Below are positions 1,331-56,358 of a stretch of 64,000 nt of DNA, piece after piece. The position numbers and the translations under genes are program-made. Source of the stretch: Halorientalis persicus. Lineage in GTDB: Archaea > Halobacteriota > Halobacteria > Halobacteriales > Haloarculaceae. Position 1 is the first letter of the stretch, and every line of letters begins with the position of its first letter. The notes beneath the pieces are model-generated. The model ran no database searches, had not been told where the DNA came from, and was given only the letters and a program-made list of their open reading frames with translations. The stretch is from the NCBI RefSeq assembly GCF_900110215.1, contig NZ_FOCX01000018.1, forward strand, positions 1 to 64,000, in the 5' to 3' direction.

Positions 1331-2707
1331 CTAGTAATCGCTAATTTTAGATCCTTTGCCAGGATTGATTTTATCCAGGTTTAGACCGTCAAGGCGGGAG
1401 ATTTCGTTGAGAACTTCGACAACGATATCGATCGCGACTTGCAGTTCGAAGTGCCATGCGGGGCCACCGACTGACCCGGCTGCTCGTTTGCGTGCGTCGA
1501 TAATTCCCTGCATGTCGAGTTCCATGAGATGGTCTCGCATTCGCCGCTGGACGAGCTTATCCGCGCCGACCTCGTCGGCAATATTTTGATAGATTGCGTA
1601 GACTGGTTTGGTTCGGACTGGCGTATCTCCTGACTTCTCGAGGACAGTGATTGCGGCAAGTGCCAGCTGTGCCTGCGTTGTCATTTCTCGCATTGCTTCC
1701 GTGACGGTTTCTTTCTCCACCTGAGATTGTGCTTGTCGGACTGTTTCTTCATCTAATTGCTCAATCCCATTCGCATCAGCGATCTCTCCTGCTTTTCTGA
1801 GGTACTTAATCGCCTGCCGAGCATCGCCTTTGTCTTGGGCAGCGAATGCTGATATCAGCGGGATAACATCGGAAGTGAGCACTTCACTCCGGAAGACGTA
1901 CTGCTCGCCACTGCAATCAATCTCAACGACTTCACCTGGATCAGATCCAAATTCGCCGGTATCAATAATCGTGTCGTCCTCAACAGTCACGTCTGCCTCG
2001 TCGACTGGGATCAGTTCTGTGTCCTGGAAGGCCTTTGCAGCTCGGCGGCGAAGGATCTGTTTCAGCTGGATGGCATCGTATGGTGAGAAGAGGATCTGAT
2101 CGTCGTATAGTGAACTCTTGACTTTTGAACTCAGGTTATCTCGCCACTGCAAGTCGTTGCTGATGCCGATGACGCTTGGGTAGACATGATCTCCAACGTA
2201 GTTTTGCGCTCGAGCCCGTGGAAGGCTGTAGAGCAATCTGTCATCGTCACCCAAAGTATCGATCTCGTCTAGAACGATGATGATTGTCCCGCCGACATCG
2301 TTCATCGCCTCGAACATCATATCCATGACGGCGTCTGTGGAGTGACCTGTTGGCCGTTCGTTCCCCGTGAGTTCCATATAAATCCGTGAGGCAGCACGGA
2401 AGCTGGTAGAGAGATCGTGGCTTTCACATGAGATATACAGTGTTGTCAAATCCAGACGGTCTGATTCTTCCTCTGCGTGATATTCAAGTTCGGCAAGCTC
2501 GGTTTTGGCGGCAGCTGTCTTCCCCTGGCCTGCTTTGCCGTAGAGGAATGCATTATTTGCACCGACACCTCGTGCGGCAGGAGAGAGTGCCATGTGCAGA
2601 TTATCTAGTTCATCCTCGCGTTCGGGGAGTTCATCGGGCCGATAGTCTTCCCGGAGAACCTCTTCTTCCTGGAAGATATGAGAGGTGGAAGCATACCGTG
2701 ATGGCAT
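1331..2707 (-). CDS. orc1/cdc6: Orc1/Cdc6 family replication initiator (origin-linked)
   Basis: A 458-residue AAA+ ATPase. Walker A is GKAGQGKT (residues 57-64) and Walker B is IIIVLDEID (near 150). Sensor-2 and lid sequence and a C-terminal winged helix (RRMRDHLMELDMQGIIDARK) follow. Orc1/Cdc6 proteins bind origin recognition boxes and load the MCM helicase. The gene start faces directly into a repeat field with G-strings (2737-4113), the usual arrangement for an archaeal initiator and its own origin. An acidic insert of about 50 residues (near 240-290, rich in D, E and T) in the lid region is unusual; it may be a clade feature. Confidence 0.93.
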   Translation of the reverse strand: MPSRYASTSHIFQEEEVLREDYRPDELPEREDELDNLHMALSPAARGVGANNAFLYGKAGQGKTAAAKTELAELEYHAEEESDRLDLTTLYISCESHDLSTSFRAASRIYMELTGNERPTGHSTDAVMDMMFEAMNDVGGTIIIVLDEIDTLGDDDRLLYSLPRARAQNYVGDHVYPSVIGISNDLQWRDNLSSKVKSSLYDDQILFSPYDAIQLKQILRRRAAKAFQDTELIPVDEADVTVEDDTIIDTGEFGSDPGEVVEIDCSGEQYVFRSEVLTSDVIPLISAFAAQDKGDARQAIKYLRKAGEIADANGIEQLDEETVRQAQSQVEKETVTEAMREMTTQAQLALAAITVLEKSGDTPVRTKPVYAIYQNIADEVGADKLVQRRMRDHLMELDMQGIIDARKRAAGSVGGPAWHFELQVAIDIVVEVLNEISRLDGLNLDKINPGKGSKISDY

Positions 2708-2736
2708 TGACCGGGGATTGTAACCGACGATACATA

Positions 2737-2826
2737 AACCCCCATGTCCGCAATGTCAGTGTTGTCTGGCTTGTCCAGAAATGGACCAACCCAAAACCCA
2801 CCCACACCCCCATGTCTGCAATTTTC
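2737..2826 (-). repeat. Left-arm ORB-like boxes, two copies, reverse orientation
   Basis: Two boxes are seen: ACCCCCATGTCCGCAATG at 2738-2755 and CACACCCCCATGTCTGCAAT at 2803-2822. On the minus strand they read ATTGCRGACATGGGGGT(GTG), the same core as the right-arm boxes but facing the opposite way. They sit 30-120 bp upstream of the orc1 start, so initiator binding could also autoregulate orc1. Confidence 0.8.
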
Positions 2827-2879
2827 TTCGATAGACGGGGAGGGGGTACTACAAGCTGAATCCTCAAGCAACCCTCTAA

Positions 2880-3080
2880 ACACCGTTTACTACAGTCAAT
2901 TGGGTCTCTTCCTCTCTTTTTAGAGATACTGTCGCTCCATCTTTGCAATATAAATAAATACTTTTCTACTAGGTAAGGTAAAGGACAAGGAAAAGCAGCT
3001 TAAACCCTTGTATTCCACCCACTATCAATCTCTTCCATCGCCATTTATAAGTGAAACCCTCTATTTGTATATTTGGTCCC
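2880..3080. other. AT-rich putative DNA unwinding element
   Basis: This stretch lies between the inverted ORB groups and is visibly AT-rich compared with its surroundings, with runs such as GCAATATAAATAAATACTTT at 2944-2963. No open frame of note is present. Its position between oppositely oriented initiator boxes is what is expected for the duplex unwinding element. This is inferred from composition and context only. Confidence 0.6.
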
Positions 3081-3095
3081 GCACTATTCCAGCCA

Positions 3096-3314
3096 ATAAT
3101 TGCGGACACGGGGGTGTGTGGGGGTCCAATACATTAACGTTCGCACCCAGGATACGTATGGACTCTTCAGGAGACGGCACACTGTCGGACGGTTCTCCTA
3201 TGTTTTGACAATCAGGATCTAGTGGAACGGATGTTATCCAGTCTGTCGGGAGTGGTATTGTCAGCTTGAATGTATGCTTCTTCAGACTGGAATTCCAGAC
3301 ATGGGGGTGTGTCC
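3096..3314 (+). repeat. Right-arm ORB-like boxes, first two copies
   Basis: ATAATTGCGGACACGGGGGT starts at 3096 and AATTCCAGACATGGGGGTGT starts at 3291. Both are followed by GTGT and face away from orc1, opposite to the left-arm copies. The second copy has a variant core (TTCCAGACA). Confidence 0.75.
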
Positions 3315-4820: not shown

Positions 4821-6971
4821 TCACTGAAAATCAGTTAGCTCCGGCTCACGTATCCCTGAGAGTTTTTGTTGAATGTCCGTGCGATCCCACCCAAGCGGAG
4901 AGAGGAGACTCTCTATCGCCCGGACGAGTTGCGTCTCGTAATACGACGCATCGTATGACTCGACCTCCTCATGAGCCAATGCGACCCGTTCTCGCGACTG
5001 CTTCTCATCGTCGACGATAACGTACTCGATGTCCTGTCCGGGGTGGACAGCGAGTTCTTGATCACGAGCCCGCTTCAGCGCGGCCACATTCTGCGTATTC
5101 TGCGTGTACCCTTCGAGTGGCTTGGAGACGCGATTTCGTTCGACGAGTTCCTCAACCGGCACCGTTCCAGAGTGAAGCCGCTTGATCGCGTCTTGAAGAC
5201 GGTCGAGTACTGCGTCCGGCGACCGAGTTGCGTCGAATCGCTCGAGACAGTCTCGCTGGACGTCCTTGATGAATCGTGGGGTTGAGCGCTGCCGAGCTTC
5301 TATACCGCGTATCTTGAACTCATCTTCGCCGGCGACCTTTCCAAAGTACTTCGTCAGCGCGCCGGCGTCGCTCTCGCGTTGCGGGACGAACGCCACCCAG
5401 TCGTAGTGGGCCTCGTGTTCCAGGCGGATTTCGATGCGTTCCGTAATCTCCGTCGCGAGCGTCTCGAGGTCCTCGCGGTCGTCGCTCTCAACCTCAGGGT
5501 CTGGTGTGACCCAGATCGAATCGACGATCCCGTGGACGACGCGCCAGCCGCCGGCTTCCAGCCGCTGTTTTGCCGTCAGCAGAATTTCACGAGCGAATGC
5601 GTTGATCGCCTCGTGGCACTCGATGCGTCCAAACTTTGCGTTGCTGAACCCCTGATACCCGAAGCAGGCGACGAGAATCCACTTCAGCGCTCCCGACCGT
5701 CCTTCGAGTTCTGTAAGCCGTTCCTCGTCAGGATTCGTGCGCTGTTGTTCGCGACGGATGGCTGCCTTGATCTCGTCGCGAGCGTCGATGATGGGCTGGA
5801 GGACGTCGACCAGGTAGCCGCGGTCGTCGCAGATAGAGTACCCGAGCCCGGGGACGTCGTCGCGGTCGCTGTGGCAGTCACACCGGATAACGTCGGGCGA
5901 GACGTTCCGGGTACAGATGATGTTCGGATACAGGCTCGAAAAGTCGAGTTCGTGGACGTTCTCGTGGACGCCGACTTCGGGCGCAAAGATGAACCCGCCA
6001 CGGTCGGCGTCGTGGAGTGTGCCCATCGGCTTGTAGAACTCGTGGCGCCAGGAATTCCACGGGACGAGGACGTCGCGGTCGTGGGCCTCACAGATCTGGA
6101 TCGCCGTAAGGACGTTCCCGATCGATGCCCACGCAAGCTCCTGGACCGGTTTCTTCGAGCGCGACACGAGATCGAGGACGCCATCGAGGTTCGTCTCCCC
6201 ATAGAAGAACGTGTTTGACTCGTCGATGATTGCCCGGCCGGGCACGTTGTAGCGCGCTGGTGAGTGGCCGACGCGACCGTAGCTCGAGTACGTCGACTGA
6301 CTTGCGAGCTGTTGGTAGCCCACGTCGGGCCACCGACTCAGCGTGAAGCCGTCGATGCCGGCGGTCGTCGCCATCTCATATAGCGTCGGGATGATTTCGC
6401 TCGTCGAGCAGACGAGGACGTCCGGCTTGTGTGCTTCGAGCGCTGCTTGGACGGCGGTCAGAATATCTGTCGGCGAGCCGGTGACGGTGTCGCCGGCGAC
6501 GGACAGCTCCCCATAGACGTCGTTGCTCGTTTCGGTCACCGGGACGCTGAGCCGGAGCGTCGACAGCTCGCTCGCCGGCGTCGGATCGACGCCGGTCTCC
6601 AGACAGTACCGAAACTCTCGCGAGAAGTCGACGTTGAAACAGGCGAGATCCCCGACTGGATATGCGGACAACTGGCGCGCCTGCTGAGCGAGTGAGGTGA
6701 CCCGGTCGATGTGTTCGACATCGACGGCGAGGACTGGCTTCTCTTCACGACGAAATCCGGGGCGTTGCGTCACCATCTCGGTCGTGACGACGTCCGGGTG
6801 CCGGTCGTAGACTGCCCGGAGGGCCTCGAGATCGACATCTACGTCAGATGCACGAGGAGCCACGTAGAAGCGGGGCGTGTAGACGTCGCGCTCGGTCACG
6901 ATGGCACCGTCACTGGTTGCCTCCCATTCGAGTACACGGCCGTCGTCGAGGAAGTCGATCGTGAATGACAT
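4821..6971 (-). CDS. polB2: Family B DNA polymerase, PolB2-like with altered catalytic motifs
   Basis: The open frame encodes 724 residues from 6995. The ATG at 6969-6971 (MSFTIDFLDDGRVLEWE) matches the usual start. Motif A is intact (HELDFSSLYPN, near 348-358). Motif B is a variant (LKWILVACFGYQGFSNAKFG, near 437-456). Motif C reads HGIVDSIWV (near 488-496), so the first Asp of the canonical DTD triad is replaced. No exonuclease I, II or III motifs are visible in the N-terminal half. This fits the partly inactivated archaeal PolB2 group, which in other archaea is damage-inducible and implicated in translesion synthesis. Nearby genes supply a separate exonuclease and a RecA-like protein. Shared promoter motifs (7028-7132) point to co-regulation with them. 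Confidence 0.88.
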   Translation of the reverse strand: MSFTIDFLDDGRVLEWEATSDGAIVTERDVYTPRFYVAPRASDVDVDLEALRAVYDRHPDVVTTEMVTQRPGFRREEKPVLAVDVEHIDRVTSLAQQARQLSAYPVGDLACFNVDFSREFRYCLETGVDPTPASELSTLRLSVPVTETSNDVYGELSVAGDTVTGSPTDILTAVQAALEAHKPDVLVCSTSEIIPTLYEMATTAGIDGFTLSRWPDVGYQQLASQSTYSSYGRVGHSPARYNVPGRAIIDESNTFFYGETNLDGVLDLVSRSKKPVQELAWASIGNVLTAIQICEAHDRDVLVPWNSWRHEFYKPMGTLHDADRGGFIFAPEVGVHENVHELDFSSLYPNIICTRNVSPDVIRCDCHSDRDDVPGLGYSICDDRGYLVDVLQPIIDARDEIKAAIRREQQRTNPDEERLTELEGRSGALKWILVACFGYQGFSNAKFGRIECHEAINAFAREILLTAKQRLEAGGWRVVHGIVDSIWVTPDPEVESDDREDLETLATEITERIEIRLEHEAHYDWVAFVPQRESDAGALTKYFGKVAGEDEFKIRGIEARQRSTPRFIKDVQRDCLERFDATRSPDAVLDRLQDAIKRLHSGTVPVEELVERNRVSKPLEGYTQNTQNVAALKRARDQELAVHPGQDIEYVIVDDEKQSRERVALAHEEVESYDASYYETQLVRAIESLLSPLGWDRTDIQQKLSGIREPELTDFQ

Positions 6972-7027
6972 CCGTTGGTTACAGTCCTCCAACAATGTAC
7001 AGAACAGTCGAGTCGCTGATTACTTCT

Positions 7028-7132
7028 GGCGTGTCGCTTCCGGATTTCAGGAATGAGTAACAAGGACTCTCTTACCGCTGTATTCCGACTTTTTAGCCAA
7101 TTATTGGCTGTTTCCGGAATGCTTTCCAGAAT
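7028..7132. promoter_or_regulatory. Upstream motif block of polB (TTTCC..GGAA palindromes)
   Basis: Box A, GGCGTGTCGCTTCCGGATTT followed by CAGGAAT, is at 7028-7054. Box B, GGCTGTTTCCGGAAT, starts at 7106, with a second TTTCCAGAAT 12 bp further on. The same two boxes in the same order and nearly the same spacing (78 against 80 bp) lie upstream of the RecA-like operon at 10213-10319. This is a duplicated regulatory region, best explained as shared operators. Confidence 0.7.
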
Positions 7133-7822: not shown

Positions 7823-7824
7823 TG

Positions 7825-8223
7825 TCAGAGGTGGGACTCATCGTCCGACGATTCGGACGAATTCGAGTCCGTCCATTCGGAGATCTCGTCGTCGTAGAAC
7901 GCTTCATCACTCGGAAGGTCGTCCTCAAGTTGGGGCTCGGCAGGTGTCCTGTCTATCGATTCCCGGAGGAGTTTCAATCGCATCGCCTCCTGACGACCGA
8001 GGATTGCTTCGACGGTCTCGTAGTCGACGTGATCGTCGTAGTAGGCGTCGCTCAGCCGCCGTCGGAACTCGTCGTCAGTTGCCAGATCCTCGAGCTCGTC
8101 CTCCAGAGCGTCAATGAGGAGCCGGGTCCGCGAGATATCGAGGATTTCAACGACGCTGTCAGCACGTTCGACGAGGGATTTTGGAGCATTGAAATCGACG
8201 CGGGTTTTCTCGTCGGCCATCAC
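7825..8223 (-). CDS. RHH-type antitoxin partner of the PIN protein
   Basis: A 132-residue protein. The N-terminus (TRVDFNAPKSLVERADSVVE, then ISRTRLLIDALEDELEDL) looks like a ribbon-helix-helix DNA-binding domain. A long acidic C-terminal tail (EWTDSNSSESSDDESHL) probably neutralises the PIN partner. Its start, with ATGs at 8223 and 8220, lies a few bases from a perfect 9-bp inverted repeat (8226-8246), as expected for an autoregulated antitoxin operon. Whether it shares a transcript with the exonuclease operon upstream is unclear, since only 40 bp separate them. Confidence 0.75.
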   Translation of the reverse strand: MMADEKTRVDFNAPKSLVERADSVVEILDISRTRLLIDALEDELEDLATDDEFRRRLSDAYYDDHVDYETVEAILGRQEAMRLKLLRESIDRTPAEPQLEDDLPSDEAFYDDEISEWTDSNSSESSDDESHL

Positions 8224-8263: not shown

Positions 8264-8911
8264 TCAGGCGATCGACTCGAGGGATTTCATCGAGAAGTCG
8301 GACTTCGAACAGTACCGTTCCGCGAGATCCATCAACGCTCGCGTCCGCCGAATATCTGCGACATTGTGGGTGAGGAGCGGTTCGAATGCTCCGTCCTGCC
8401 ACGTCGTGACTGCTGCTTCGCTGTCCGTGAATGGGTCGAGATCGTTCAACCCGTGGCCAATCAGTTCCTCATAGACACCACAGAGTGTGTTTTCAGACGT
8501 GTTGAATCGCTTCTCGAAGACATCCATCACATCCACGTAGGGAAGACTCCCGAACGGCCAGTCGATGGCGTGCGTGCACAATCTGGTCCGCAGGAACGGG
8601 AGGTCGAACCCGCCGGACCACCGCTCGCCGTTGTATGCGACGAGTTTCGCGTCACGCTGGGTGAGTGTCGACGTCACGAACACGGACATCTCGTGCAGAA
8701 GCTCCTGCTCACTACCGTGAACCGAGAGTCGGACCGGTGCATTCAGGTTCCCGTTGAGCCGCTCTTCGAGGTCGTCAGAAGGCATTCCGCCATCCGTATT
8801 GAGGAACATACGTGAGGCGACCGTGGAGTCGAAGCCGATGACCGTGAGTTGGTCGGCTGTCTCGAAGCCGGTCGTTTCGATGTCGAACGCCACTGTAGAG
8901 AGGTCCGTCAT
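8264..8911 (-). CDS. DEDD-family 3'-5' exonuclease (RNase H-like)
   Basis: A 215-residue protein with the DnaQ/PolB-type exonuclease motifs: VAFDIETTGF (D10, E12), KLVAYNGERWSGGFDLPFLR (Exo II, near 92-111) and LLTHNVADIRRTRALM (Exo III, near 180-195). These residues bind two metals for 3'-5' hydrolysis. Its start overlaps the 3' end of the small gene upstream by 4 bp, so it is translated in the same operon as the RecA-like protein. Because the neighbouring PolB lacks visible exonuclease motifs, a stand-alone proofreading or end-trimming role is plausible; that is inference. Confidence 0.85.
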   Translation of the reverse strand: MTDLSTVAFDIETTGFETADQLTVIGFDSTVASRMFLNTDGGMPSDDLEERLNGNLNAPVRLSVHGSEQELLHEMSVFVTSTLTQRDAKLVAYNGERWSGGFDLPFLRTRLCTHAIDWPFGSLPYVDVMDVFEKRFNTSENTLCGVYEELIGHGLNDLDPFTDSEAAVTTWQDGAFEPLLTHNVADIRRTRALMDLAERYCSKSDFSMKSLESIA

Positions 8912-9228
8912 GTGTCGCCTCCAGTGTCCTCCTCTGGGGCTGTTGCTGACTGCTGTGTGTCGTGTTGTGCTATGGCCTGTTCAAGCTCAGCGAGTCGCTC
9001 TTCGTGTTCGTCGAGACGGGCCTCCTGTTCGAGATCGATACTGAACAACGCCGGCAGCAGCGGGTTCTGATGATTCAGCAGGCCGCTGGCGTCGGCGTGC
9101 TCGCGAGCGTACTCGAAGAGCCGATCGAAGTGGGGCTGATCACGACGGCGAAGCGCACGCCGGAAATCCGCCCAGCGCTCTTCGATAGCCCGCAGCGCAT
9201 CTCGATACGTTGGATTCGTGCGCCCCAT
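8908..9228 (-). CDS. Small coiled-coil protein of the RecA-like/exonuclease operon
   Basis: A 106-residue protein starting at the ATG 9226-9228 (MGRTNPTYRDALRAIEERWA). The N-terminus is basic and helical (FRRALRRRDQPHFDRLFEYA). The C-terminus forms a coiled coil (EARLDEHEERLAELEQAIAQ) with a disordered tail. I do not recognise a named family. It sits between the RecA-like gene (2-bp gap) and the exonuclease gene (4-bp overlap), so a structural or bridging role in one complex is the natural guess. Confidence 0.75.
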   Translation of the reverse strand: MGRTNPTYRDALRAIEERWADFRRALRRRDQPHFDRLFEYAREHADASGLLNHQNPLLPALFSIDLEQEARLDEHEERLAELEQAIAQHDTQQSATAPEEDTGGDT

Positions 9229-9230
9229 CG

Positions 9231-10178
9231 CTATCGCCCTCCAGTGCCAGGTGCTGTCCACGCATCGAGCAGGGGATCCGCAGTGACCGACACCGTCTCG
9301 CCGTCAGCTGTGACGCCCGTCCCGACACCCTCCGGGGTCGGCGTCGACGGCGCCGGCGTCGTCGGTTCCATGCCGACCTGTGTGGCGCGTGCCGCGAGCA
9401 GCTGCCGCCAGTACGCGAACGTCGTCTGGTAGTACGCGCCGTCGTCGACGGGATAGACGAGCGTCTCGAACTCGTCGCCGACGAAACGTGGCCCCATTCG
9501 CGTTTGCTCGCATTTCAGGTGGTGGCTGGCTGCCGTCGCAACCGGTTCGGTGAATTCGTTACGTTCGTTTCGCGTAACGAGCACCGGGATGTCGTACCCA
9601 TCGGCGTAGGTCGCCAACCGAGCGAGTGTTCGGGCCTGAAGGGTCTGGGACTGCACCTCGCCAAGGGTATCATCCGTACGATACTGGGCATCGACGTCCG
9701 GCACGACGATGAGCGAAGGGGTGTGTAGTGATCCATCGCCCTGACCCGTGGGCTGTCGCCTTCTCGAGTTGTCGTCGGCTGTCGATTCCCGGATCGACTG
9801 ATTGACCGCTCCCGTGAGATCGCACACAGCACCGTAGTGCTGGTAAGCGGTGAAGCCGCGTGTAACGTGGATCCGGTCGAGTAAGCGCTGGCTGGGAGCG
9901 ATCTGTGCGAGTGAGGTTGTCGTCGCGTGGCCGTTTGCGTCCACCCAGAACGCGGGCCCATCGTGCAGGAGGAGATGGTCAAGCACGAGCGACTGAAGGA
10001 CCGGGACTCCACGGCCACCGTCTACGTCAAGCAGCGTGATCCCGTCATCAAGTGATGGGAGCAACATCCCCTCGCTGGCTGGGTCGGCCTGTGTTGTAAG
10101 GGACCGATTTTGATCCGCACTCCGTGTCGGTTGATCCACTGCCAACCGGTCTGATGTCGATCTTGAGTGATCGGGCAT
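9231..10178 (-). CDS. RecA/RadA-like protein with degraded ATP-binding site
   Basis: A 315-residue protein. The core follows the RecA/RadA pattern: GITLLDVDGGRGVPVLQSLV where Walker A should be, without the GK[ST] residues; HVTRGFTAYQHYGAV; LIVVPDVDAQYR at the Walker B place; and DIPVLVTRNERNEF. The N- and C-terminal tails are disordered. An inactivated recombinase paralogue beside an altered polymerase recalls the bacterial ImuA-ImuB-DnaE2 mutasome, where ImuA is RecA-like. The gene heads an operon of RecA-like, coiled-coil and DEDD exonuclease genes. Its promoter region is homologous to that of polB. Confidence 0.75.
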   Translation of the reverse strand: MPDHSRSTSDRLAVDQPTRSADQNRSLTTQADPASEGMLLPSLDDGITLLDVDGGRGVPVLQSLVLDHLLLHDGPAFWVDANGHATTTSLAQIAPSQRLLDRIHVTRGFTAYQHYGAVCDLTGAVNQSIRESTADDNSRRRQPTGQGDGSLHTPSLIVVPDVDAQYRTDDTLGEVQSQTLQARTLARLATYADGYDIPVLVTRNERNEFTEPVATAASHHLKCEQTRMGPRFVGDEFETLVYPVDDGAYYQTTFAYWRQLLAARATQVGMEPTTPAPSTPTPEGVGTGVTADGETVSVTADPLLDAWTAPGTGGR

Positions 10179-10212
10179 AGTTACCTAGATACCCACATCC
10201 CGAATAAGCCGC

Positions 10213-10319
10213 GGCGTGTCGTTTCCGCGTTTCATGGAAAGGAGGCCTCAGCTAATAATCTGGACTCAGTCACGGGATTTCTGCGTGAGTTGGGCTGTTT
10301 CCGAGAAGGTTTCCGGAAT
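10213..10319. promoter_or_regulatory. Upstream motif block of the RecA-like operon
   Basis: Box A is GGCGTGTCGTTTCCGCGTTT followed by CATGGAAA (10213-10240). Box B is GGCTGTTTCCGAGAA from 10293, then TTTCCGGAAT (10310-10319), with the second half-motif again 12 bp after the first. It matches the polB upstream block at 7028-7132 in order, spacing and sequence. Box A lies about 35 bp upstream of the start codon. Confidence 0.7.
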
Positions 10320-17838: not shown

Positions 17839-17940
17839 TTTCCGGAAATTTCCGGAAATCCTGGATTTCCGCATACAAAATCGCATGATGGCGGCACAGT
17901 GGATCGCGGTCTACAGGTGCAACCATGCCATTTCCGGAAA
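17839..17940. promoter_or_regulatory. Three TTTCCGGAAA palindromes upstream of orc1-CBASS
   Basis: Two perfect 10-bp palindromes stand side by side at 17839-17848 and 17849-17858, and a third is at 17931-17940. The last is 50 bp upstream of the ATG at 17990 and just before a TATA-like TTTTTATTA (17953-17961). The same core occurs in the polB and RecA-like promoter blocks. I saw no further intergenic copies. Confidence 0.7.
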
Positions 17941-17989
17941 TGACCCGGTTACGTTTTTATTACTTGCCGGTAAAACCAGTCAGTTACAG

Positions 17990-19018
17990 ATGATCCGCGA
18001 TGCTCGTGTCCTCCGTGCTGGCTTCGTCCCTCGAGAAGTCGAGCATCGCGACGCCGAAGTCAACCACCTTTCAACCGTCCTCGAACCCATCACCAACGAA
18101 GAACCCGCAGATACCGCTATCGTCACCGGGCCCAGCGGGACCGGCAAAACGTGTATCTCGCAGTTCGTCACCGAGCGCCTTCGCGAAGAGGTCCTCGGCG
18201 TCGAAGCCACCTACGTCAACTGCTGGCGCAACTACACTCGATTCCGAACGCTCTACCAGATCCTCGACGATCTCGGTGCAACCATCGACATCCACCGCCA
18301 ATCCACGCCCCACGACGAACTCGTCGACCGCCTCCAGCAATACGACGGCCCGCGAACCGTCATCATCCTTGACGAGGTCGACCAGCTCGAAGACCCAAGC
18401 GTCCTTTACGACCTCCACAGCCTCTCGCAGTTCGCAATCATCTGCATCGCCAACAAGGAAGAGGAATTGTTCAGCCGTGTCGACGACCGTCTCGTGAGTC
18501 GACTCCGTTCGAGTGAACACGTCCAAATGGACAAGTACCACGACGAGCAGCTGTACGACATCCTGAGTGCTCGGGCTAAGTGGGGGCTCGACGAAGACGT
18601 CATCACCAACGACCACCTTTACCGAATCGCCGATGCGGCCGCCGGTGACGCCCGCCTCGCAATCGGCATCCTCCGAACGGCCGCCGGCAAGGCCAACCGC
18701 GAGAACCACGAGCGCATCACCGACGACATCCTCCTGGACGCCGCCGAGGACGCCCGGGCCCAGATCAAGCAGAAGAGCATCGATTCACTCACGCCACACC
18801 AGCGCGTCGTCTACGACATCGTTCGTGAGCACGGCCCGCTCGGCCCGAGCGAGATTCACGACCACTATACGGACGAGGTAGACGATCCCCGGACGAAACG
18901 GACAGTCCGGTCCTATCTCTCGAAGATGGCTCAGTACAACCTCCTCGAGGCCAAGGGCACGAGCCGGGATCGAGAATACGCGATCATTGAGTCACCGCCT
19001 GCTGCAACAACCACTTAA
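17990..19018 (+). CDS. orc1/cdc6: Orc1/Cdc6-like AAA+ ATPase heading the CBASS operon
   Basis: A 342-residue protein from the ATG at 17990 (MIRDARVLRAGFVPREVEHR); upstream codons of the longer frame overlap the promoter. Walker A is GPSGTGKT (47-54) and Walker B is TVIILDEVDQL (near 122-132). The lid reads IADAAAGDARLAIGILRTAA, and a C-terminal winged helix follows. It belongs to the short haloarchaeal Orc1 paralogues, which need not be origin initiators. Only 24 bp separate its stop from the CD-NTase start, and no ORB-like repeats are adjacent. It may therefore serve the defence operon or simply mark an insertion site. Scars of another orc1 C-terminus lie downstream at 23775 and 25560. Confidence 0.9.
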   Translation: MIRDARVLRAGFVPREVEHRDAEVNHLSTVLEPITNEEPADTAIVTGPSGTGKTCISQFVTERLREEVLGVEATYVNCWRNYTRFRTLYQILDDLGATIDIHRQSTPHDELVDRLQQYDGPRTVIILDEVDQLEDPSVLYDLHSLSQFAIICIANKEEELFSRVDDRLVSRLRSSEHVQMDKYHDEQLYDILSARAKWGLDEDVITNDHLYRIADAAAGDARLAIGILRTAAGKANRENHERITDDILLDAAEDARAQIKQKSIDSLTPHQRVVYDIVREHGPLGPSEIHDHYTDEVDDPRTKRTVRSYLSKMAQYNLLEAKGTSRDREYAIIESPPAATTT

Positions 19019-19042: not shown

Positions 19043-20167
19043 ATGACCACACTCCCCACACTGTTCGAGACCTTCCTGTCAGACATCCGCCCGCAGGACG
19101 AGCACAATGATGCCTACAAGGAGGGCCACGAAACCCTCCGCGACCACTTGCAGAATGACGATGACATCGACGATTTCTACGTTTCAGACTTTCTACAGGG
19201 GAGCTACCGTCGGTGGACGGCACTCAGACCGCAAGAAGACGAGAAATCCGACGTTGACGTCGTCTTTGTCTCTGATCTCAGCAGTGATCTCGATACCGAT
19301 GTTGCGCTAAGAAAATGCGAGCCGTTCCTGGATGAACACTATGAGGGGCAGTGGGAACCGAATGCCCACTCCTACAAAATCGAGGAAGAGGAGGTGGAGA
19401 TCGATCTCGTCTTGACAGCGGCACCGAGCGAGGCAACACGAGAAGCCGTCAAATCACTGGGTTCACTGGACGTAGGCACAGCCCTGACTCCGGACGACCT
19501 TTCGACCGTGGCGGAGGCCCTCAATATGTCGGCAGATGGCGACGACGAGTGGAAGGACGAACCGCTCAAGATCCCACATCGAGATGAAAACGAGTGGGAG
19601 AATACCCATCCCCTCGCGACTATCGCCTTCACCGTAAATAAGAACGATATCACGGATGGCCACTACGTGAACGTCGTCAAAGCCATCAAATGGTGGCGGC
19701 GAACGAAGACACCCGACGTCGAAGGACCGACAAGCTATCCCCTCGAGCACATCGTTGGTCAGTGCTGTCCAGATGATATCGACAGCGTCGCTGAAGGCGT
19801 GACAAGGACGCTCGAAGAACTTACACGGCAGTTCAAGACCGAAGCAATGGCCGAGGAAACCCCCGTCTTGCCGGCTCACGGGCTCCCGGAAACCCCCGAG
19901 AATGACGTCCTCAAACAAATCGACGGGGACGATTTCGCGGCGTTCTACGATGAGGCCGAGGATGCCGCCGCGCTCGCGCGGACAGCACTGGATGAGGAGG
20001 ACAAAGAAACATCGAGGGATTACTGGTACCAGCTCTTCGGCGAGAAATTCCCTCCATTCGGAAGCGACGACGATTCTGACGATGGAGGGGAGAAAGCCAT
20101 GTCAGTAGGGTCGTCCTCACAGGTAGAGGATCCATCTGATCACCAGTTCGCCGAGTCGGACAGCTGA
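19043..20167 (+). CDS. CBASS CD-NTase (cyclic oligonucleotide synthase)
   Basis: A 374-residue nucleotidyltransferase. The active-site signature is FLQGSYRRWTALRP (G53-S54) followed by SDVDVVFVSDL (D70, D72), with the third acidic residue in EVEIDLVLTAAP (D122). These are the cGAS/DncV-like residues that bind metal and make cyclic di- or trinucleotides upon phage infection. The long acidic C-terminus ends HQFAESDS; in type II CBASS the synthase C-terminus is the site ligated by Cap2. It is followed after 8 bp by the E2-E1-JAB gene. The product nucleotide cannot be told from sequence. Confidence 0.9.
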   Translation: MTTLPTLFETFLSDIRPQDEHNDAYKEGHETLRDHLQNDDDIDDFYVSDFLQGSYRRWTALRPQEDEKSDVDVVFVSDLSSDLDTDVALRKCEPFLDEHYEGQWEPNAHSYKIEEEEVEIDLVLTAAPSEATREAVKSLGSLDVGTALTPDDLSTVAEALNMSADGDDEWKDEPLKIPHRDENEWENTHPLATIAFTVNKNDITDGHYVNVVKAIKWWRRTKTPDVEGPTSYPLEHIVGQCCPDDIDSVAEGVTRTLEELTRQFKTEAMAEETPVLPAHGLPETPENDVLKQIDGDDFAAFYDEAEDAAALARTALDEEDKETSRDYWYQLFGEKFPPFGSDDDSDDGGEKAMSVGSSSQVEDPSDHQFAESDS

Positions 20168-20175
20168 CGTTACAA

Positions 20176-22512
20176 ATGCCTCCCCACGAAATTACAGAAG
20201 CCGTTGCATCCATTGCCGAACGGGACGGAGTCACCGTCCTCAAAGAGCCATATCGACACGATAGCAACGGACGGTGGATCGTCAAGATCAGGCTTTCACC
20301 AGACGACTTAGAACCCCATCCGGACGTGCCACGCGAGACGGACTGGTATCTCCATCTACGGGATACGTACCCCGCCGGTTCAATTGGGATCTACCCTGCG
20401 GATCAAGAAGAGAACACCATTACCGCCACATTCCCCCACCAGAAGCTGAACGTGGCTGGGAGCAACGATACTCCATGGCGAAGAGGCGATATCTGTGTTG
20501 CTCGGTATGGGCACACTCTCAGTCAAACGGGAGCCACCGGCGAACCCAGCACAAGCCGTGATCGACTCTGCTGGCATATGGACCGAGCATTACGGTGGTT
20601 AAGTAATGCTGCAAAAGGGGAACTCCGGAAACCAGACGAACCGTTTGAAATCCCGGCCTTCGATACGAACTCGGCTTCGGCCCCGACCATCGCATTCAAC
20701 GAGACGCAGGAGTCGTTCTCAGACTGGAGGGAGACGTATGGACAGTGGGGTACGGTCAACCTCTGCTCGTTGCCGACCGCTGAAGAGACATACGCGACTG
20801 GAACGTTCAAAGACAGCGACGATGAAGTCGTCTATCAGCCACAATGGGGTGGATACATCGATGCGAATCCTGAGGACTCTGTTTCCGGAGCGTGGGCACT
20901 GTTAGAAGAGGTGCCGATTGAACCCCCGTGGGAGGCCCCGGGAACGTGGCAAGATTTGGAAGGGTTTTTCGATGGCACCGAGACCGACCCGTACGAGCTA
21001 CGGGCAAATATCAAGCCTGTGTTGGACGATGAACCGGTCAAAGTTCTTCTAATCGGGTTCCCTATCCCGGCAACGGTCGACGGCGATCCTGAGATCATCT
21101 ATTGGCAACCAATCGAGATAGAGGAGTTCAAAGATCCGAATGACCTCTCCGGCGGATTTCGAGATACTGGAAAGGGGCCAGAGATAGCCGAACGGCGAGA
21201 AGCAGGAGAGGAACAGATTCGGTGGCTGGACTCGGACAACTGGTCGCACGAGCAGCTCACCAGACGCGGACATATGACGGAGTGGTTCCTGGATCGCAAC
21301 ATCGTACTCATCGGAGCGGGAGCGCTCGGCAGTATGGTTGCCGAGAATCTCGTTCGAGCCGGCTTTCAGCAGCTTACCATCGTCGACAACGACACGTATG
21401 AGATCGGCAACGTGGCTCGCCACACACTAACAATCGATGAGGTGGGACGAAACAAGGCGACAGCAATCGCGGACCGGCTCGAATCCATTGCACCGTACGC
21501 CCAGATCTTTGATGTGGATAGCGCCTTTCCACCGAGCGGTGAGTTGCCGGAGCCAATTAGAGAAGCGGAGGTAGTAATTGACTGTACCGCATCACAGGGA
21601 GTTCGTCGCGCTCTGGATGCGATTAGATGGAATCACCCGGTCGTGTTTTGCTCCGCTGCGATGGGTCGGCGAGCGAACCGGTTGTTCTGCTTCACAGCTT
21701 ACTCACATACCTTTCCGTACCGCGATTACAACGAAGCGTTCGATCCATGGCGGTTGCAAGAACAGATCGAATGGGACGAAGACGAGGATGCCATCCCCGA
21801 ACGAGTCGGCTGCTGGCACCCAGCATCAGTTATCCGAACGGACCGGGTGATGACGTGGGCAGGAACAGTGACACGACTTCTCGATCAGGCGACGTCATTG
21901 AGCCTGCGCGAGAATCACTTCACCGTACTCGAGACCGGTAGTGACGACGAGCTGCCGACCATTTCACAGGCCACACCTCCCTTCCAGGACGGAACAATAT
22001 GGCGAGCACCGGAATCGCCAATCACCGTACAGATTCCGGCCACGTGTCTTGAAGCGATGTATGAGCGCTGTCGGAAAGAACACCCCTGTGAGACGGGTGG
22101 TATTCTGGCTGGAACCGACCGTCTCGATGGACCAGCACTGGTGGTTAATGCCCGAGACCCACCGCGGGACTCCATTCAAGAACCAACTCGATTCCTCCGC
22201 GGAACCGACAAAGTCGAGGAGTGGCTCAAAGACGCCAAGGAGAGCATCGGCATCGACTATCTCGGTGAATGGCACTACCACCCCGGCGCTTCACCCGATC
22301 TCAGTCGGGACGATCGGACTGCGATGAATGACATCGCCAACGACGACGGCTACGACTGTCCCCATCCGCTCCTCTTCATCGTTGGACAGGACGAAGAAGG
22401 TCAATTCACGATCAACGCCTATCTATTCCACGATAGTAAGGAATACGAGCAGTTAGAACGGATTGACAACCCAGATGCAGCGACAACTCTCAACGTCGGT
22501 GACGATATATGA
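20176..22512 (+). CDS. CBASS Cap2-Cap3 fusion: E2-E1-JAB protein
   Basis: A 778-residue protein with three parts. Residues 1-115 look E2-like: TFPHQKLN, then WRRGDICVARYG, with C107 as candidate thioester Cys. Residues about 370-560 form a ThiF/E1 domain: IVLIGAGALGSMVAENLVRA, IVDNDTYEIGNVARH, and a candidate Cys in RVGCWHPASV. Residues about 620-760 form a JAMM protease: HPCETGGILAG, then GEWHYHPGASPDLSRDD. In type II CBASS, Cap2 conjugates the synthase to targets and Cap3 removes it. Here both activities sit in one chain. The stop overlaps the next start by 4 bp. Confidence 0.9.
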   Translation: MPPHEITEAVASIAERDGVTVLKEPYRHDSNGRWIVKIRLSPDDLEPHPDVPRETDWYLHLRDTYPAGSIGIYPADQEENTITATFPHQKLNVAGSNDTPWRRGDICVARYGHTLSQTGATGEPSTSRDRLCWHMDRALRWLSNAAKGELRKPDEPFEIPAFDTNSASAPTIAFNETQESFSDWRETYGQWGTVNLCSLPTAEETYATGTFKDSDDEVVYQPQWGGYIDANPEDSVSGAWALLEEVPIEPPWEAPGTWQDLEGFFDGTETDPYELRANIKPVLDDEPVKVLLIGFPIPATVDGDPEIIYWQPIEIEEFKDPNDLSGGFRDTGKGPEIAERREAGEEQIRWLDSDNWSHEQLTRRGHMTEWFLDRNIVLIGAGALGSMVAENLVRAGFQQLTIVDNDTYEIGNVARHTLTIDEVGRNKATAIADRLESIAPYAQIFDVDSAFPPSGELPEPIREAEVVIDCTASQGVRRALDAIRWNHPVVFCSAAMGRRANRLFCFTAYSHTFPYRDYNEAFDPWRLQEQIEWDEDEDAIPERVGCWHPASVIRTDRVMTWAGTVTRLLDQATSLSLRENHFTVLETGSDDELPTISQATPPFQDGTIWRAPESPITVQIPATCLEAMYERCRKEHPCETGGILAGTDRLDGPALVVNARDPPRDSIQEPTRFLRGTDKVEEWLKDAKESIGIDYLGEWHYHPGASPDLSRDDRTAMNDIANDDGYDCPHPLLFIVGQDEEGQFTINAYLFHDSKEYEQLERIDNPDAATTLNVGDDI

Positions 22513-23756
22513 CTGATCCAACTGGCCGTGTATTTCTCAGCTATAAGCACGAACAGACGGACGTCGCCAACTTCCTGCAAACGGAACTCGAGCGACACGG
22601 GGTGCCGATTTGGCGGGATATCTTCGATTTGAAGCCGGAGCCACTCAGAGACGAAATCATCGACCAGTTGGAGAACCCGGAAACGGCCAGTGGTATTGCG
22701 CTCGTCAGTGAGGGCGTAGCCGACTCCGACATCATTCTCAACGACGAGTTGCCGGGATTCAACAAGCGCTGGGACGGGGATGACGAGTTTTTCGTGGTCG
22801 TTGTGCCATGTCCCGATATCAGCGTTGGAGAAGCCAAATCGATACTCAACGAGGCACCGATCCTCCACGGCTTTTCCGCCTGGAAAATGCTCCCCCTAGA
22901 GGAGACCACGTCTGACAAAGCTACAGAGATCGTCCAGGCCGTCTTATCAGAGCGGATCGAGCGGATAAATGGGTATTTGCCGGACGGTGAGCCCCTCGAA
23001 TGTTCACTTGATACCTACGAATCGCCCGCTCACGACATCGATCCAGCGATTGCTATCGACTGGTCAAGATCTTTCGAACATGGTCCGCCATCCCAAGAAG
23101 TATGGAACCAGCGTCTACTCCCGGCGTTAACTACGGTAACGGACAGTCTCATTCAAAACGCATCGGGCCGCCCCCTTCGATTCCGTGGCCGAACGCATCT
23201 TCCCGCTGCGTTCGCGGCCGGTTACTGTCTTCCAACCACACGTCGTATCCAAGCAACGTGGATGCAACCCACCGGCCCTGCCGGGATGACAGAATGGACA
23301 CTCGATATCGACCAAGAGGAAAGCGGGTTAGAAGGAGATCTCCAGCGACAACCGAATCACGGAACCGAGCTTGCGGTGCTCGTCAACATCGCAGCCGATG
23401 TGCAACCGGAGATCGACCAAATGCATAACGACCTTCCGGATTTCAACGGTATCCTCAGATTGACACCAGAAGATGGACCTGGTGTGGAATTGTCCCCGGC
23501 ACAGGCAGCCCATGCTGCAGATGTTTTCCGTACCAAGGTACGAGACGCAATCAAAAAACTGCCCAAAACATCGACTATTCATCTCTTCATGGCCGGCCCT
23601 ACAGGGCTCGCCTTTCTCTTCGGGCGAAACTCAAACACTCTCAGACCGATCCAGACTTACCTCTACAGCAAAGACGAGGGTCGGTACTATCCTGCTGGTC
23701 GATTACAGAATCAGTCACTTTCAGACGGCTCAGACACCGCCTCAGAAGATCAATAG
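22509..23756 (+). CDS. CBASS effector: TIR-SAVED protein
   Basis: A 415-residue protein. The N-terminal TIR domain (residues 4-150) begins RVFLSYKHEQTDVANFLQTE and continues GVPIWRDIFDL and IALVSEGVADSDIILNDEL. The C-terminal domain (about 215-395) has the SAVED pattern, including LPKTSTIHLFMAGPTGLAFL and FGRNSNTLRPIQTYLY. TIR-SAVED effectors oligomerise when SAVED binds the cyclic nucleotide; the TIR part then destroys NAD+. It completes the operon CD-NTase, E2-E1-JAB, effector. Its 5' end overlaps the previous gene by 4 bp. Confidence 0.9.
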   Translation: MTDPTGRVFLSYKHEQTDVANFLQTELERHGVPIWRDIFDLKPEPLRDEIIDQLENPETASGIALVSEGVADSDIILNDELPGFNKRWDGDDEFFVVVVPCPDISVGEAKSILNEAPILHGFSAWKMLPLEETTSDKATEIVQAVLSERIERINGYLPDGEPLECSLDTYESPAHDIDPAIAIDWSRSFEHGPPSQEVWNQRLLPALTTVTDSLIQNASGRPLRFRGRTHLPAAFAAGYCLPTTRRIQATWMQPTGPAGMTEWTLDIDQEESGLEGDLQRQPNHGTELAVLVNIAADVQPEIDQMHNDLPDFNGILRLTPEDGPGVELSPAQAAHAADVFRTKVRDAIKKLPKTSTIHLFMAGPTGLAFLFGRNSNTLRPIQTYLYSKDEGRYYPAGRLQNQSLSDGSDTASEDQ

Positions 23757-24054: not shown

Positions 24055-25455
24055 GTGGGCGACGACACTGATCTCGACGTATCGTTCGCAATAGACGCAG
24101 AGACAGTCTCTCTGAGCCCAATCGGGGAATATCAGGTTCTCGATCTGGAAGGGCCGGTCGTCATCGTTGGAGATGCGTCGTACCGGGTCGTGCCGGTCGG
24201 TGAAGAATCAGACCCGTCAGAAGATGTCCGGGAACTTAGCGTCGACGAAATACGTGCTGCACTCAGCGAGCTCGCTGACAACGACGACTTTCAGTCAATC
24301 GTAGACAATTGCCCGACGAATACGCCGCTCGTCTACGACGACATCGATTATTTGACTCGCCATCTCCCCACAACTTCGCTCCAGAAGTGCCAGAAGCTGA
24401 GTGAGAGCACCCCTTTCGAGAAGGAATTACTCCTCCAAGTTGCCTACGTAGAACGCCAAAACTCTCTCGTCGGGCACTCAGACAACGTCCTCGAGTATTA
24501 TCTCGAACAGCGTACTGAAATCGCTGAAAAACTCCGGTCCACCGACGAGATAGACGGCGACGTTGAGCGGTCATTCTTTTCGTATCTCCTCCTCGCCTCG
24601 GCACTCATCGAAGAGTTGACGACAGAAACGGTCCTCAACGAGCTCTTTCGCGAGGAAGCTCGTCTCGACAGCATCACAGAGCACGTTCGGAGTATGGGGC
24701 ACGCGAAGCGATTAAAGAAACTTTGTGATATCCAGATACTGACCGGAGGTGACCATGGATCGCTTGTCGAGGTCAAAGAACGCAGAAACAACCTCGTCCA
24801 CGACGCGCAGAAGCGTGCAGGCCTTGACGAACTCGAATCGCGTCGTGAAGTCGCACAGATCCTCGAACAGACTGATCGATGTGCGTCCGTCCTACTGACG
24901 ATCTCGGGAAAGAACATCGAGTCAGTCATCGCGAAGCGGGGGTGTGAGCCCTATATCGAACACGCTCAATCTGAGGCAGTAGCCGACACAATCACAACCT
25001 GGGAACAGGAGAATCCAGAGCGCCTGTCGAGACTTCACGACTGTGAAAGAGCGGCCCTCGAAGAGATTCGCTGGGATACGGAAGAGAGTGACCCTAGGAA
25101 CAACATCACGGAGGGATTCACGTTTGATGGATTTGATGACGAGGAGCTGTATGAGATACTGATGGAGTTCGTTAGTGATGCCTCACAGGCGTTCCTCGAC
25201 CGGATTGATGCCGATGCGAACGAGAGCAATCTCGATCGCTTCGATTTCGCAGTGATGGTGCTGCTCTGTGCTGGTCACAGTTACGAGGAGATTGGCCGCT
25301 GGCTAGATACCGACGAAAAGTACGTCCAGCGGAAGGAGAACGTGATAGCCTGGAGAGCTTCGCAGTTCGAGAAGGATCTGGTTGAGGAGATCCCCCGCCC
25401 AGAGGGCCCAACATGGCCATCGGACACAGCATCAGATGATCAGGATGGGTGCTAG
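24055..25455 (+). CDS. Unknown protein with HEPN-like motif
   Basis: A 466-residue protein starting at GTG 24055. The central helical region (about 170-280) contains FFSYLLLASALIEELTTETV and VKERRNNLVHDAQKR. The R-N-N-L-V-H spacing fits the Rx4-6H active site of HEPN ribonucleases. The C-terminus (SYEEIGRWLDTDEKYVQRKE) resembles a helix-turn-helix. The N-terminus is a beta-rich acidic segment. I do not know the family. It is wedged between relics of orc1 and pglX and follows CBASS, so a defence or toxin role is likely but unproven. Confidence 0.65.
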   Translation: MGDDTDLDVSFAIDAETVSLSPIGEYQVLDLEGPVVIVGDASYRVVPVGEESDPSEDVRELSVDEIRAALSELADNDDFQSIVDNCPTNTPLVYDDIDYLTRHLPTTSLQKCQKLSESTPFEKELLLQVAYVERQNSLVGHSDNVLEYYLEQRTEIAEKLRSTDEIDGDVERSFFSYLLLASALIEELTTETVLNELFREEARLDSITEHVRSMGHAKRLKKLCDIQILTGGDHGSLVEVKERRNNLVHDAQKRAGLDELESRREVAQILEQTDRCASVLLTISGKNIESVIAKRGCEPYIEHAQSEAVADTITTWEQENPERLSRLHDCERAALEEIRWDTEESDPRNNITEGFTFDGFDDEELYEILMEFVSDASQAFLDRIDADANESNLDRFDFAVMVLLCAGHSYEEIGRWLDTDEKYVQRKENVIAWRASQFEKDLVEEIPRPEGPTWPSDTASDDQDGC

Positions 25456-25641: not shown

Positions 25642-26328
25642 TCAGGAACTGAACTCGCCGAGGCCCGATTGCTCGTGGTCCAGCGGCTCGATGACCTGGG
25701 GATCGTCGTTGCCGGGGTTGTTGACTCGCGTCGAAATCTCGTAGGCGTCCAGATCGTCCTTCGGGTACGGCTGGCACAGTTCCTTGGGGGTGTCCGAATC
25801 TGCGGCGAGCCAGTCAGATTCCGCGTCCTGCGGGAGGACGACCGGCATCCGGTCGTGGATGGAGTTCATCAAGTCGTTTGGCTCCGTCGTGAGAATCGTC
25901 ACGCACGAGATCGTCTCGTCGTCACCCTCCCAGACGTCCCAGAGTCCAGCCATCGCGATGGCCGGATCATCCTCGCGGTGAATTCGATACGGCTGTTTCA
26001 TCTCGCTGTTCGGTGATTTCCACTCGTAGAACCCCGACGAGAGGACGAGACAGGGGCGGGATTCCCACGCTTGTTCGAAGACGCGTTTCTCGTCGGCAGT
26101 CTCGGAGCGGGCGTTGATGATTCCCTCCACAGACTCATCTGCCCAAAAGGGGATCAAACCCCAGTGGTAGCGGTCGATCTCGTTGGAAGCCTCGTTCGTG
26201 ATGATGTGTAAGTCGTCGGCGGGCGCAATGTTGTATCGCGGTGTATAGCCCCCGTCCGTGACAAGCTCGGCGTCGAAGCGCGCCTCGAGGTCTCCTTGTT
26301 CGACGAAGAGAGAATTGCGTCCACACAT
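25642..26328 (-). CDS. SRAP-family protein (HMCES/YedK-like)
   Basis: The ATG at 26326-26328 starts MCGRNSLF, with the catalytic Cys at position 2; the frame upstream is not needed. Conserved SRAP blocks follow: YTPRYNIAPADDLHII, HWGLIPFWADESVEGIINAR with SETADEKRVF, PCLVLSSGFYEWKSP, and MNSIHDRMPVVLP. SRAP proteins crosslink through Cys2 to abasic sites in single-stranded DNA and shield them. The operator-like inverted repeat at 26397-26440 lies about 70 bp upstream and matches one upstream of polB, linking the two repair genes. Confidence 0.93.
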   Translation of the reverse strand: MCGRNSLFVEQGDLEARFDAELVTDGGYTPRYNIAPADDLHIITNEASNEIDRYHWGLIPFWADESVEGIINARSETADEKRVFEQAWESRPCLVLSSGFYEWKSPNSEMKQPYRIHREDDPAIAMAGLWDVWEGDDETISCVTILTTEPNDLMNSIHDRMPVVLPQDAESDWLAADSDTPKELCQPYPKDDLDAYEISTRVNNPGNDDPQVIEPLDHEQSGLGEFSS

Positions 26329-26396
26329 ATGCGCGTGTTCGTGGAGGAATGTCTTCAACGTAGTCGCAAAGGAGCATCGTCAACGGCGGCTCTCGT

Positions 26397-49807: not shown

Positions 49808-49813
49808 GGGTGG

Positions 49814-51979: not shown

Positions 51980-51981
51980 GG

Positions 51982-56289: not shown

Positions 56290-56358
56290 AGGGGATATGT
56301 ATGCTTTTCCCGAGACAGAGAAGCGTCTTTAATGTTGCCGAAGGGTAACGAATGCTAA

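Follow-up and report, generated by a model that had tools for sequence, protein, structure and literature searches.

In bacteria, LexA controls translesion polymerase genes through one box, its own gene included. The virus-borne Orc homologue Orf8 of SNJ2 reportedly acts in a damage-signalled lysogeny switch (Orf8-Orf7-Orf4; Chen, Nucleic Acids Research, 2023). Orf8 is described at second hand as a damage-activated regulator in the lysogeny switch (PMC10544981). Among cellular proteins, Saccharolobus Orc1-2 binds to the promoter of its own gene and activates Dpo2, a polymerase of PolB2 type (PMC9738581), and iRadA-PPB2-PolB2 operons have orc1/cdc6 homologues enriched nearby in archaea and lexA in bacteria, with genes for SRAP (SOS-response-associated peptidase) also nearby (PMC11791011). 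The bacterial controllers of cyclic-oligonucleotide-based antiphage signalling systems (CBASS), CapW, CapP, and CapK, respond to DNA damage, and the genes for CapW, CapH/CapP, and CapK/CapS may lie between restriction and CBASS genes (PMC13373217). Here we analyse 64,000 nucleotides of Halorientalis persicus contig NZ_FOCX01000018.1 (GCF_900110215.1; hereafter the window, to which coordinates refer), in which an Orc1/Cdc6-like gene heads a CBASS operon and is preceded by copies of the palindrome TTTCCGGAAA. Our favoured reading, to which we assign a probability of roughly 0.72, is that these palindromes represent one version of an "Orc box" read by non-initiator Orc-like regulators of themselves and of the PolB2 mutasome, with CBASS as cargo.

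The window locus resembles that of Sulfolobus/Saccharolobus Orc1-2 in that a probable non-initiator Orc1/Cdc6 homologue has an element in the promoter of its own gene as well as in those of repair genes, a PolB2-type polymerase being among the putative targets (PMC9738581). It differs from the Orc1-2 regulon, with its hexamer ANTTTC, in that the haloarchaeal element is a tandem GGAA/TTTCCGGAAA motif and in that CBASS lies within the Orc transcription unit. The associated genes are like those of PolB2 mutasome operons in content, order, Orc and SRAP neighbours, and an altered DxD motif; PolB2-Orc neighbourhoods have thus already been published, in an account whose accessible part is of gene neighbourhoods and holds neither a promoter element nor CBASS (PMC11791011). 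SNJ2 Orf8, which is among the nearest viral relatives of the window protein (37% identical), is likewise a haloarchaeal Orc1/Cdc6 homologue and differs in being virus-borne. As with CapW, CapH/CapP, and CapK/CapS, a regulator gene would head an immune operon, but the proteins are unrelated: no member of those families was found at the head of the CBASS operon, where there is instead an Orc1/Cdc6-like AAA+ protein whose box is common to repair genes. As the bacterial CBASS controllers are damage-responsive, the proposed logic has a precedent, with unrelated proteins. The likeness to LexA would consist in one regulator and one box serving both the regulator itself and damage-tolerance genes, the regulator here being Orc-like. 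In the openly available literature we found no report of an Orc box or of an Orc-CBASS link and no paper joining ultraviolet (UV) irradiation, polB2, and orc in Halobacterium, and the words "Orc" and "Cdc6" are absent from the main text of a paper on archaeal defence (PMC12988326).

The Palindromes Belong to the Promoter of an Orc-Like Gene

Three copies of TTTCCGGAAA are present in the window, two of them abutting (17839–17848 and 17849–17858) and the third at 17931–17940, where 0.08 copies are expected and none of 100 shuffles reached three. The first-pass annotation had described these as two abutting palindromes and a third before an Orc1-CBASS operon, and the description is borne out. One correction concerns the gene start: the Orc-like gene begins not at 17885, an open reading frame (ORF) call that is too long, but at ATG 17990 (MIRDARVLRAG), a start supported by two other genomic copies; the third palindrome, which does precede the gene, therefore sits in the promoter. 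It was also correct that the same core recurs in the polB and RecA-like promoter blocks, as TTTCCGGAAT, which differs by a single base, at 7111 and 10310, and in no other intergenic region: the window contains six copies of the 8-base core TTCCGGAA, five at the sites just named and one at 50774, within a PglZ gene.

Genome-wide, TTTCCGGAAA has seven copies in 4.87 Mb, and every one lies upstream of one of three copies of one Orc-like gene (the window and contig C26 have three each, identically spaced, and contig C41 has one). The proteins encoded on C26 and C41 are 91% identical to that of the window, and CBASS is directly behind neither gene (contig C26 ends ~0.5 kb downstream). Since these Orc copies have the palindrome but no CBASS directly behind them, the element is to be assigned to Orc and not to CBASS. 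The genome-wide count proposed as a check in the first-pass annotation thus places all seven copies before Orc genes, but their number is not above the dinucleotide expectation (~6, scaled from the window), and we set aside any significance drawn from the raw count. The weight of the shared element comes instead from its conserved position and from an out-of-sample profile.

The Orc-CBASS promoter, on the plus strand, comprises a distal pair of abutting palindromes (17839..17858), the promoter-proximal palindrome that forms the Orc box core (17931..17940), and a TATA-like TTTTTAT (17954..17960), the T/A columns of which are conserved among promoters. The proximal palindrome starts 59 bp before the Orc ATG with a 13 bp spacer to TTTTTAT, and the full Orc box (17930..17958) extends into the TATA-like element. 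A collection scan identified 80 relatives of the Orc-like protein at 79–95% identity, many of them ~90% identical, giving 83 loci with those of the window, C26, and C41. Exact TTTCCGGAAA lies no more than 220 bp upstream of Orc in 63 of the 83. After two loci were left out (L031 and L069, with the start misplaced or too little upstream sequence), 81 promoters were used, and the proximal site was found with at most one mismatch in 72 of them (letter-shuffled patterns: mean 0.06, maximum 5), the best site starting exactly 62 bp before the ATG in 56/81. The distal site was present with at most one mismatch in 60/81, mostly 79–95 bp above the proximal one. Among 48 non-redundant Orc promoters, which differ by >40% upstream, the nine bases of TTTCCGGAA have 1.75–2.0 bits per column vs. 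0.02–0.52 in the 30 columns before them, and this conserved block is placed just upstream of the TATA box.

A Longer Orc Box and Its Specificity

The chromosomal Orc paralogue of H. persicus (contig C51) is 58% identical to the window protein and has TTTCTGGAAATTCCGGAAGCGACACGCCACCAGTTAAG in its promoter. Most upstream regions of 40 Orc paralogs from 31 other genomes contain a tandem GGAA, then NACCC, then TTAT ~50 bp before the ATG, and the TTTCCGGAAA palindrome is the plasmid-clade form of this longer box. From these regions we derived a sequence-only profile, R1, with 28 promoters of divergent Orc paralogs as the training set and no H. persicus promoter among them; in one case (from genome G071) the gene concerned shares 97% identity with the chromosomal Orc of H. 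persicus. Left out of the 40 were L190 (redundant), L186, L187, L192, and L205 (start codon misplaced), L201, L204, and L208–L211 (no clear box), and L213 (distant site only).

Within the window, the three best R1 matches are the Orc-CBASS promoter (E 1.1e-4), the RecA-like promoter (1.6e-4), and the polB promoter (0.009), followed by a match at 0.33. In the whole H. persicus genome the best matches are the chromosomal Orc (E 1.3e-5), the chromosomal RecA-like gene (0.0037), the window Orc-CBASS (0.0087), and the window RecA-like promoter (0.013), then the two other Orc copies (0.032 and 0.039); the window polB promoter comes ninth (0.59), behind two marginal places (0.36 each). When R1 was run on 79 of the 80 relative loci (1.47 Mb, E up to 0.5; L020 was left out as a near-copy of L019), 103 of 105 matches lay upstream of Orc (54), RecA-like (37), or PolB (12) genes, and the two remaining matches are one homologous site in two loci. 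Thirty-nine genomes of the class gave 27 matches with E no higher than 0.05, six of them from H. persicus: seven before Orc, five before RecA-like, and four before PolB genes, with 11 elsewhere. Two simpler searches were rejected. A 20-base pair pattern was too rigid genome-wide and recovered the RecA-like site alone, and GGAARCGACMCG with one mismatch was too loose (172 places on both strands vs. 55 for a reversed control), so that the profile was used instead.

The PolB2 Mutasome Operon Carries the Same Box

The sites previously seen at the polB and RecA-like genes are present, but they are only the distal pairs, and each promoter also has a stronger promoter-proximal box. For the RecA-like promoter (minus strand), the proximal box with TTAT is at 10204..10240 and the distal GGAAAC pair, which includes the 10310 site, at 10295..10319; for polB, also on the minus strand, the proximal box is at 7019..7053 and the distal pair, including the 7111 site, at 7108..7131. 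The distance between distal pair and proximal box is 54 bp in both.

The genes behind these promoters run in one orientation on the minus strand from 10178 to 4821 and comprise a RecA/RadA-like protein (9231..10178; weak Rad51 Pfam match), a small protein of PPB2 type (8908..9261) with the MGRT motif described in PMC11791011, an RNase H-like/DEDD exonuclease-like protein (8264..8911; library matches), and a family B DNA polymerase of PolB2 type (4821..6971; the ORF caller had placed its start at 6995). The RecA-like sequence, read by eye, has no GKT/GKS and thus lacks the Walker A motif, as expected of the inactivated ATPase (iRadA) of a PolB2 operon. The polymerase, also read by eye, has HGIVDS at the DxD position, the first Asp being replaced as in most operons of this kind; the usual PolB motif at this place is DTDS. 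Two ORFs without a Pfam match lie at 7256–8223, between the exonuclease-like gene and polB, and polB has its own box promoter in the window while in many relatives the RecA-like, exonuclease, and polB genes form a single run. A complete Orc, RecA-like, MGRT-protein, and PolB module of its own, boxes included, is also present on the H. persicus chromosome (L142:3799-8576).

The neighbourhood survey covered up to 10 kb around Orc in the 83 loci, some of whose contigs end early, and found RecA-like genes in 54, PolB in 41, SRAP in 39, and the CBASS nucleotidyltransferase in seven. The recurrent neighbourhood genes are the PolB2 mutasome; in the window the SRAP gene, a usual neighbour of the module identified by a library match, is at 25642..26358 on the minus strand. 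RecA-like, PPB2, and PolB genes lie downstream of Orc in 13 of 20 chromosomal Orc loci. A box scoring at least 11 was found in 12 of these 13 RecA-like promoters, vs. 8.4% of random 370-bp segments from the same loci, and a tandem GGAA in 11, vs. 2.8% of random segments. The box also co-diverges between neighbouring Orc and RecA-like promoters at chromosomal loci: their similarity within a locus is 0.698 vs. 0.625 when permuted (P 0.0008, for eight loci whose lineages are not fully independent; L282, which has no box, and the near-duplicates L270, L271, L281, and L288 were left out). This same-locus likeness is best explained by a reader encoded in the locus, for which the Orc-like protein is the obvious candidate.

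The Orc-Like Protein Is Most Likely Not an Initiator

The proposed regulator (17990..19018, plus strand; 342 aa) is an Orc1/Cdc6-like AAA+ protein with a predicted C-terminal winged helix. It has a Walker A (GPSGTGKT) and a Walker B motif (ILDEVD), of which the key residues G47, G50, G52, K53, and T54 and I126 to E129 are invariant among 18 relatives, and it matches the archaeal Orc structures 2qby (1.2e-22) and 2v1u (4e-20). AAA+ and Cdc6_lid domains were found, whereas Pfam Cdc6_C reached only E 0.09, and the TIGR02928 score is 183.4 against a cut-off of 181.3, below which the chromosomal paralogue falls. The AlphaFold model has a mean pLDDT (predicted local distance difference test) of 53; its first 180 residues are poor, residues ~183–335 are usable, and the predicted winged helix at 271–330 reaches about 80–94. 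The fold matches of the C-terminal model are generic winged helices, including 2qby, 2v1u, 1fnn, and 1w5s, and they exclude no family. The module is mobile, with 79 plasmid records at 60% identity or more; pNG600 of Haloarcula marismortui, for one, has it (Orc RR_RS02255, SRAP RR_RS02250, polB RR_RS02215).

A second Orc1/Cdc6, of initiator type with Cdc6_C present, is encoded at 1331..2707 on the minus strand, and we place it outside the regulon. Beside it, at 2733..3312, are inverted G-string repeats resembling origin recognition boxes (ORBs), proper haloarchaeal origin features as in PMC3528665 and likely the real replication origin. No such inverted repeats were seen by eye upstream of 17990. 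On these features together, the Orc-like protein is most likely a non-initiator. Haloferax Orc proteins not linked to origins have been described as of unknown function (PMC7776575).

CBASS as a Probable Later Cargo of the Orc Unit

Behind the Orc-like gene on the plus strand, library matches identify a CBASS nucleotidyltransferase (SMODS/PADLOC Cyclase; 19043..20167), an E1-E2-JAB fusion (20176..22512), and a TIR-SAVED effector (22509..23756), so that nucleotidyltransferase, ancillary protein, and SAVED effector, the components expected of CBASS, share one operon. The genes from Orc onward are separated by a 24 bp gap, an 8 bp gap, and a 4-bp overlap. CBASS lacks a separate box, begins 24 bp after the Orc gene, and is cargo of only some Orc copies. 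A search of 391 genomes of the class for the nucleotidyltransferase gave 17 positive genomes. Orc is directly upstream in all ten with copies at least 91% identical (nine intact with boxes, one frameshifted) and in none of the seven with copies 52–72% identical, which marks CBASS as a later cargo of the Orc unit; most simply, CBASS would have joined the unit once and then travelled with Orc.

On the other, upstream side of Orc, tested representatives match the defence models HmaB/HmaC, BrxC, DndC, DpdJ-like, and type IIG restriction, and three of the nine upstream-gene representatives tested have no defence-model match. Judging by these representatives, the Orc module seems to serve as an anchoring point for defence genes. 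A 466-aa ORF without a Pfam, PADLOC, or NCBIfam match lies behind the CBASS operon (24055–25455), and the same ORF directly follows Orc in some CBASS-less loci (e.g., L055 and L057).

Proposed Control and Alternative Explanations

We propose that the Orc-like protein would bind the tandem GGAA element just upstream of the B recognition element (BRE)/TATA box and a second pair ~80–92 bp further up, and would thereby control, besides its own gene, the RecA-like, PPB2, exonuclease-like, and PolB genes of the PolB2 mutasome operon. The position of the site, adjoining the core promoter from upstream, makes activation more probable than repression, and by analogy with Sulfolobus Orc1-2 and SNJ2 Orf8 the signal would be DNA damage. 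Where a CBASS operon has come to follow the Orc gene directly, as in one plasmid lineage, it would be transcribed from the Orc promoter, and CBASS would rise together with damage-tolerance functions once the regulator is activated, with a presumed effect on immunity. The single regulator envisaged in the first-pass annotation is strongly supported insofar as a control element is common to the Orc-CBASS, polB, and RecA-like promoters, although CBASS itself has no box, and the regulator, which had not been named there, is likely the Orc-like protein itself. Now that a box and a candidate regulator can be named, both an SOS-like response and a non-origin function of Orc can be tested directly, and the arrangement would link archaeal antiviral immunity to a repair regulon, in the way that the unrelated proteins CapW, CapP, and CapK link immunity to DNA damage in bacteria.

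Several observations sit uneasily with this proposal. The Sulfolobus DDRE (DNA damage-responsive element) hexamer ANTTTC is not conserved in Orc promoters, in which the column two before TTTC holds 0.15 bits and is mostly C. The six divergent paralogs without a clear box (L201, L204, and L208–L211) and the one boxless RecA-like promoter among the 13 chromosomal ones (L282) have no recognisable element, an R1 match at E 0.05 is present in only 17 of the 39 genomes of the class, and the box was not found in the examined stretches of SNJ2 and LSV-48N, both of which encode relatives. In one locus (L230) the nucleotidyltransferase is 95% identical and the Orc gene is split over three frames, by decay or sequencing error, and a UV array of Halobacterium NRC-1 detected no SOS-like response (PMC1224876).

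A variant that we consider unlikely agrees with the favoured reading except that the Orc-like protein would be a constitutive auto-repressor adjusting module dosage, unresponsive to DNA damage. The C-terminal winged helix does weakly resemble repressors (Penicillinase_R below cut-off; BlaI, MecI, and Fur in a large group of equally ranked fold matches), but the box lies upstream of the TATA box, not over it, Orc relatives of known role respond to damage (PMC9738581), and PolB2 operons are damage-induced elsewhere (PMC11791011). A further step down in probability is that some other factor, such as a special paralogue of transcription factor B (TFB) or an unlinked winged-helix regulator, reads the box and that the Orc-like gene is merely another target. 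The direct adjacency of the box to the TATA region and the presence of a TFB gene close to the H. persicus chromosomal Orc (L142:9918-10853) would suit such a factor; the recurrence of Orc, RecA, and PolB as targets and the co-divergence of boxes within loci fit a locus-encoded reader, and a Sulfolobus Orc paralogue is known to have such a role and to bind its own promoter (PMC9738581).

We give very little credence to reading the palindromes as origin recognition boxes, with an initiator encoded by the Orc-like gene and a replication origin upstream of it. The Orc1/Cdc6 homology and the TIGR02928 score just above cut-off speak for it, and GGAAAC resembles ORB cores. Orc genes also adjoin haloarchaeal origins (PMC3528665), but there is neither a G-string nor an ORB pair flanking an AT-rich element here, the box is in a promoter and recurs before RecA-like and PolB genes, and another Orc on this replicon has both Cdc6_C and, beside it, inverted G-string repeats at 2733–3312. 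Least credible of all is shared ancestry alone, by which the module was copied as a block between plasmids and any control of CBASS is incidental. The mobility of the module and the ~90% identity of many Orc proteins would allow it, yet non-redundant promoters approach 2 bits in the box and 0 bits in its flanks, divergent chromosomal paralogs retain the box, and it stands before different genes (Orc, RecA-like, and PolB); promoter conservation and the co-divergence permutation had already disfavoured this explanation.

Boxes Near Other Genes and Remaining Features

Four R1 boxes in three genomes (L262:6877, L263:6224, L264:6685, and L265:11487) adjoin a small winged-helix gene, and in L262–L264 the box separates this gene from a divergent integrase of phage type (Pfam Phage_integrase). 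As far as gene order suggests, the excision of proviruses may have come under the control of an Orc box that they adopted. A broader and more speculative possibility, which we hold only tentatively, is a haloarchaeal SOS-like regulon in which an Orc1/Cdc6-family protein replaces LexA and reads the equivalent of an SOS box that drives itself and the translesion PolB2 mutasome, mobile elements having plugged in twice (CBASS captured in the Orc unit, and proviruses with the box between winged-helix gene and integrase); if so, DNA damage would decide repair, immunity, and provirus excision jointly. A DDE transposase gene starts 117 bp after a further R1 box (L267:5824), which may be there by chance. 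The window that holds CBASS also contains genes of a bacteriophage exclusion (BREX) system, identified by PADLOC as BrxHII, PglZ, PglX, and BrxB, at 46901–60815.
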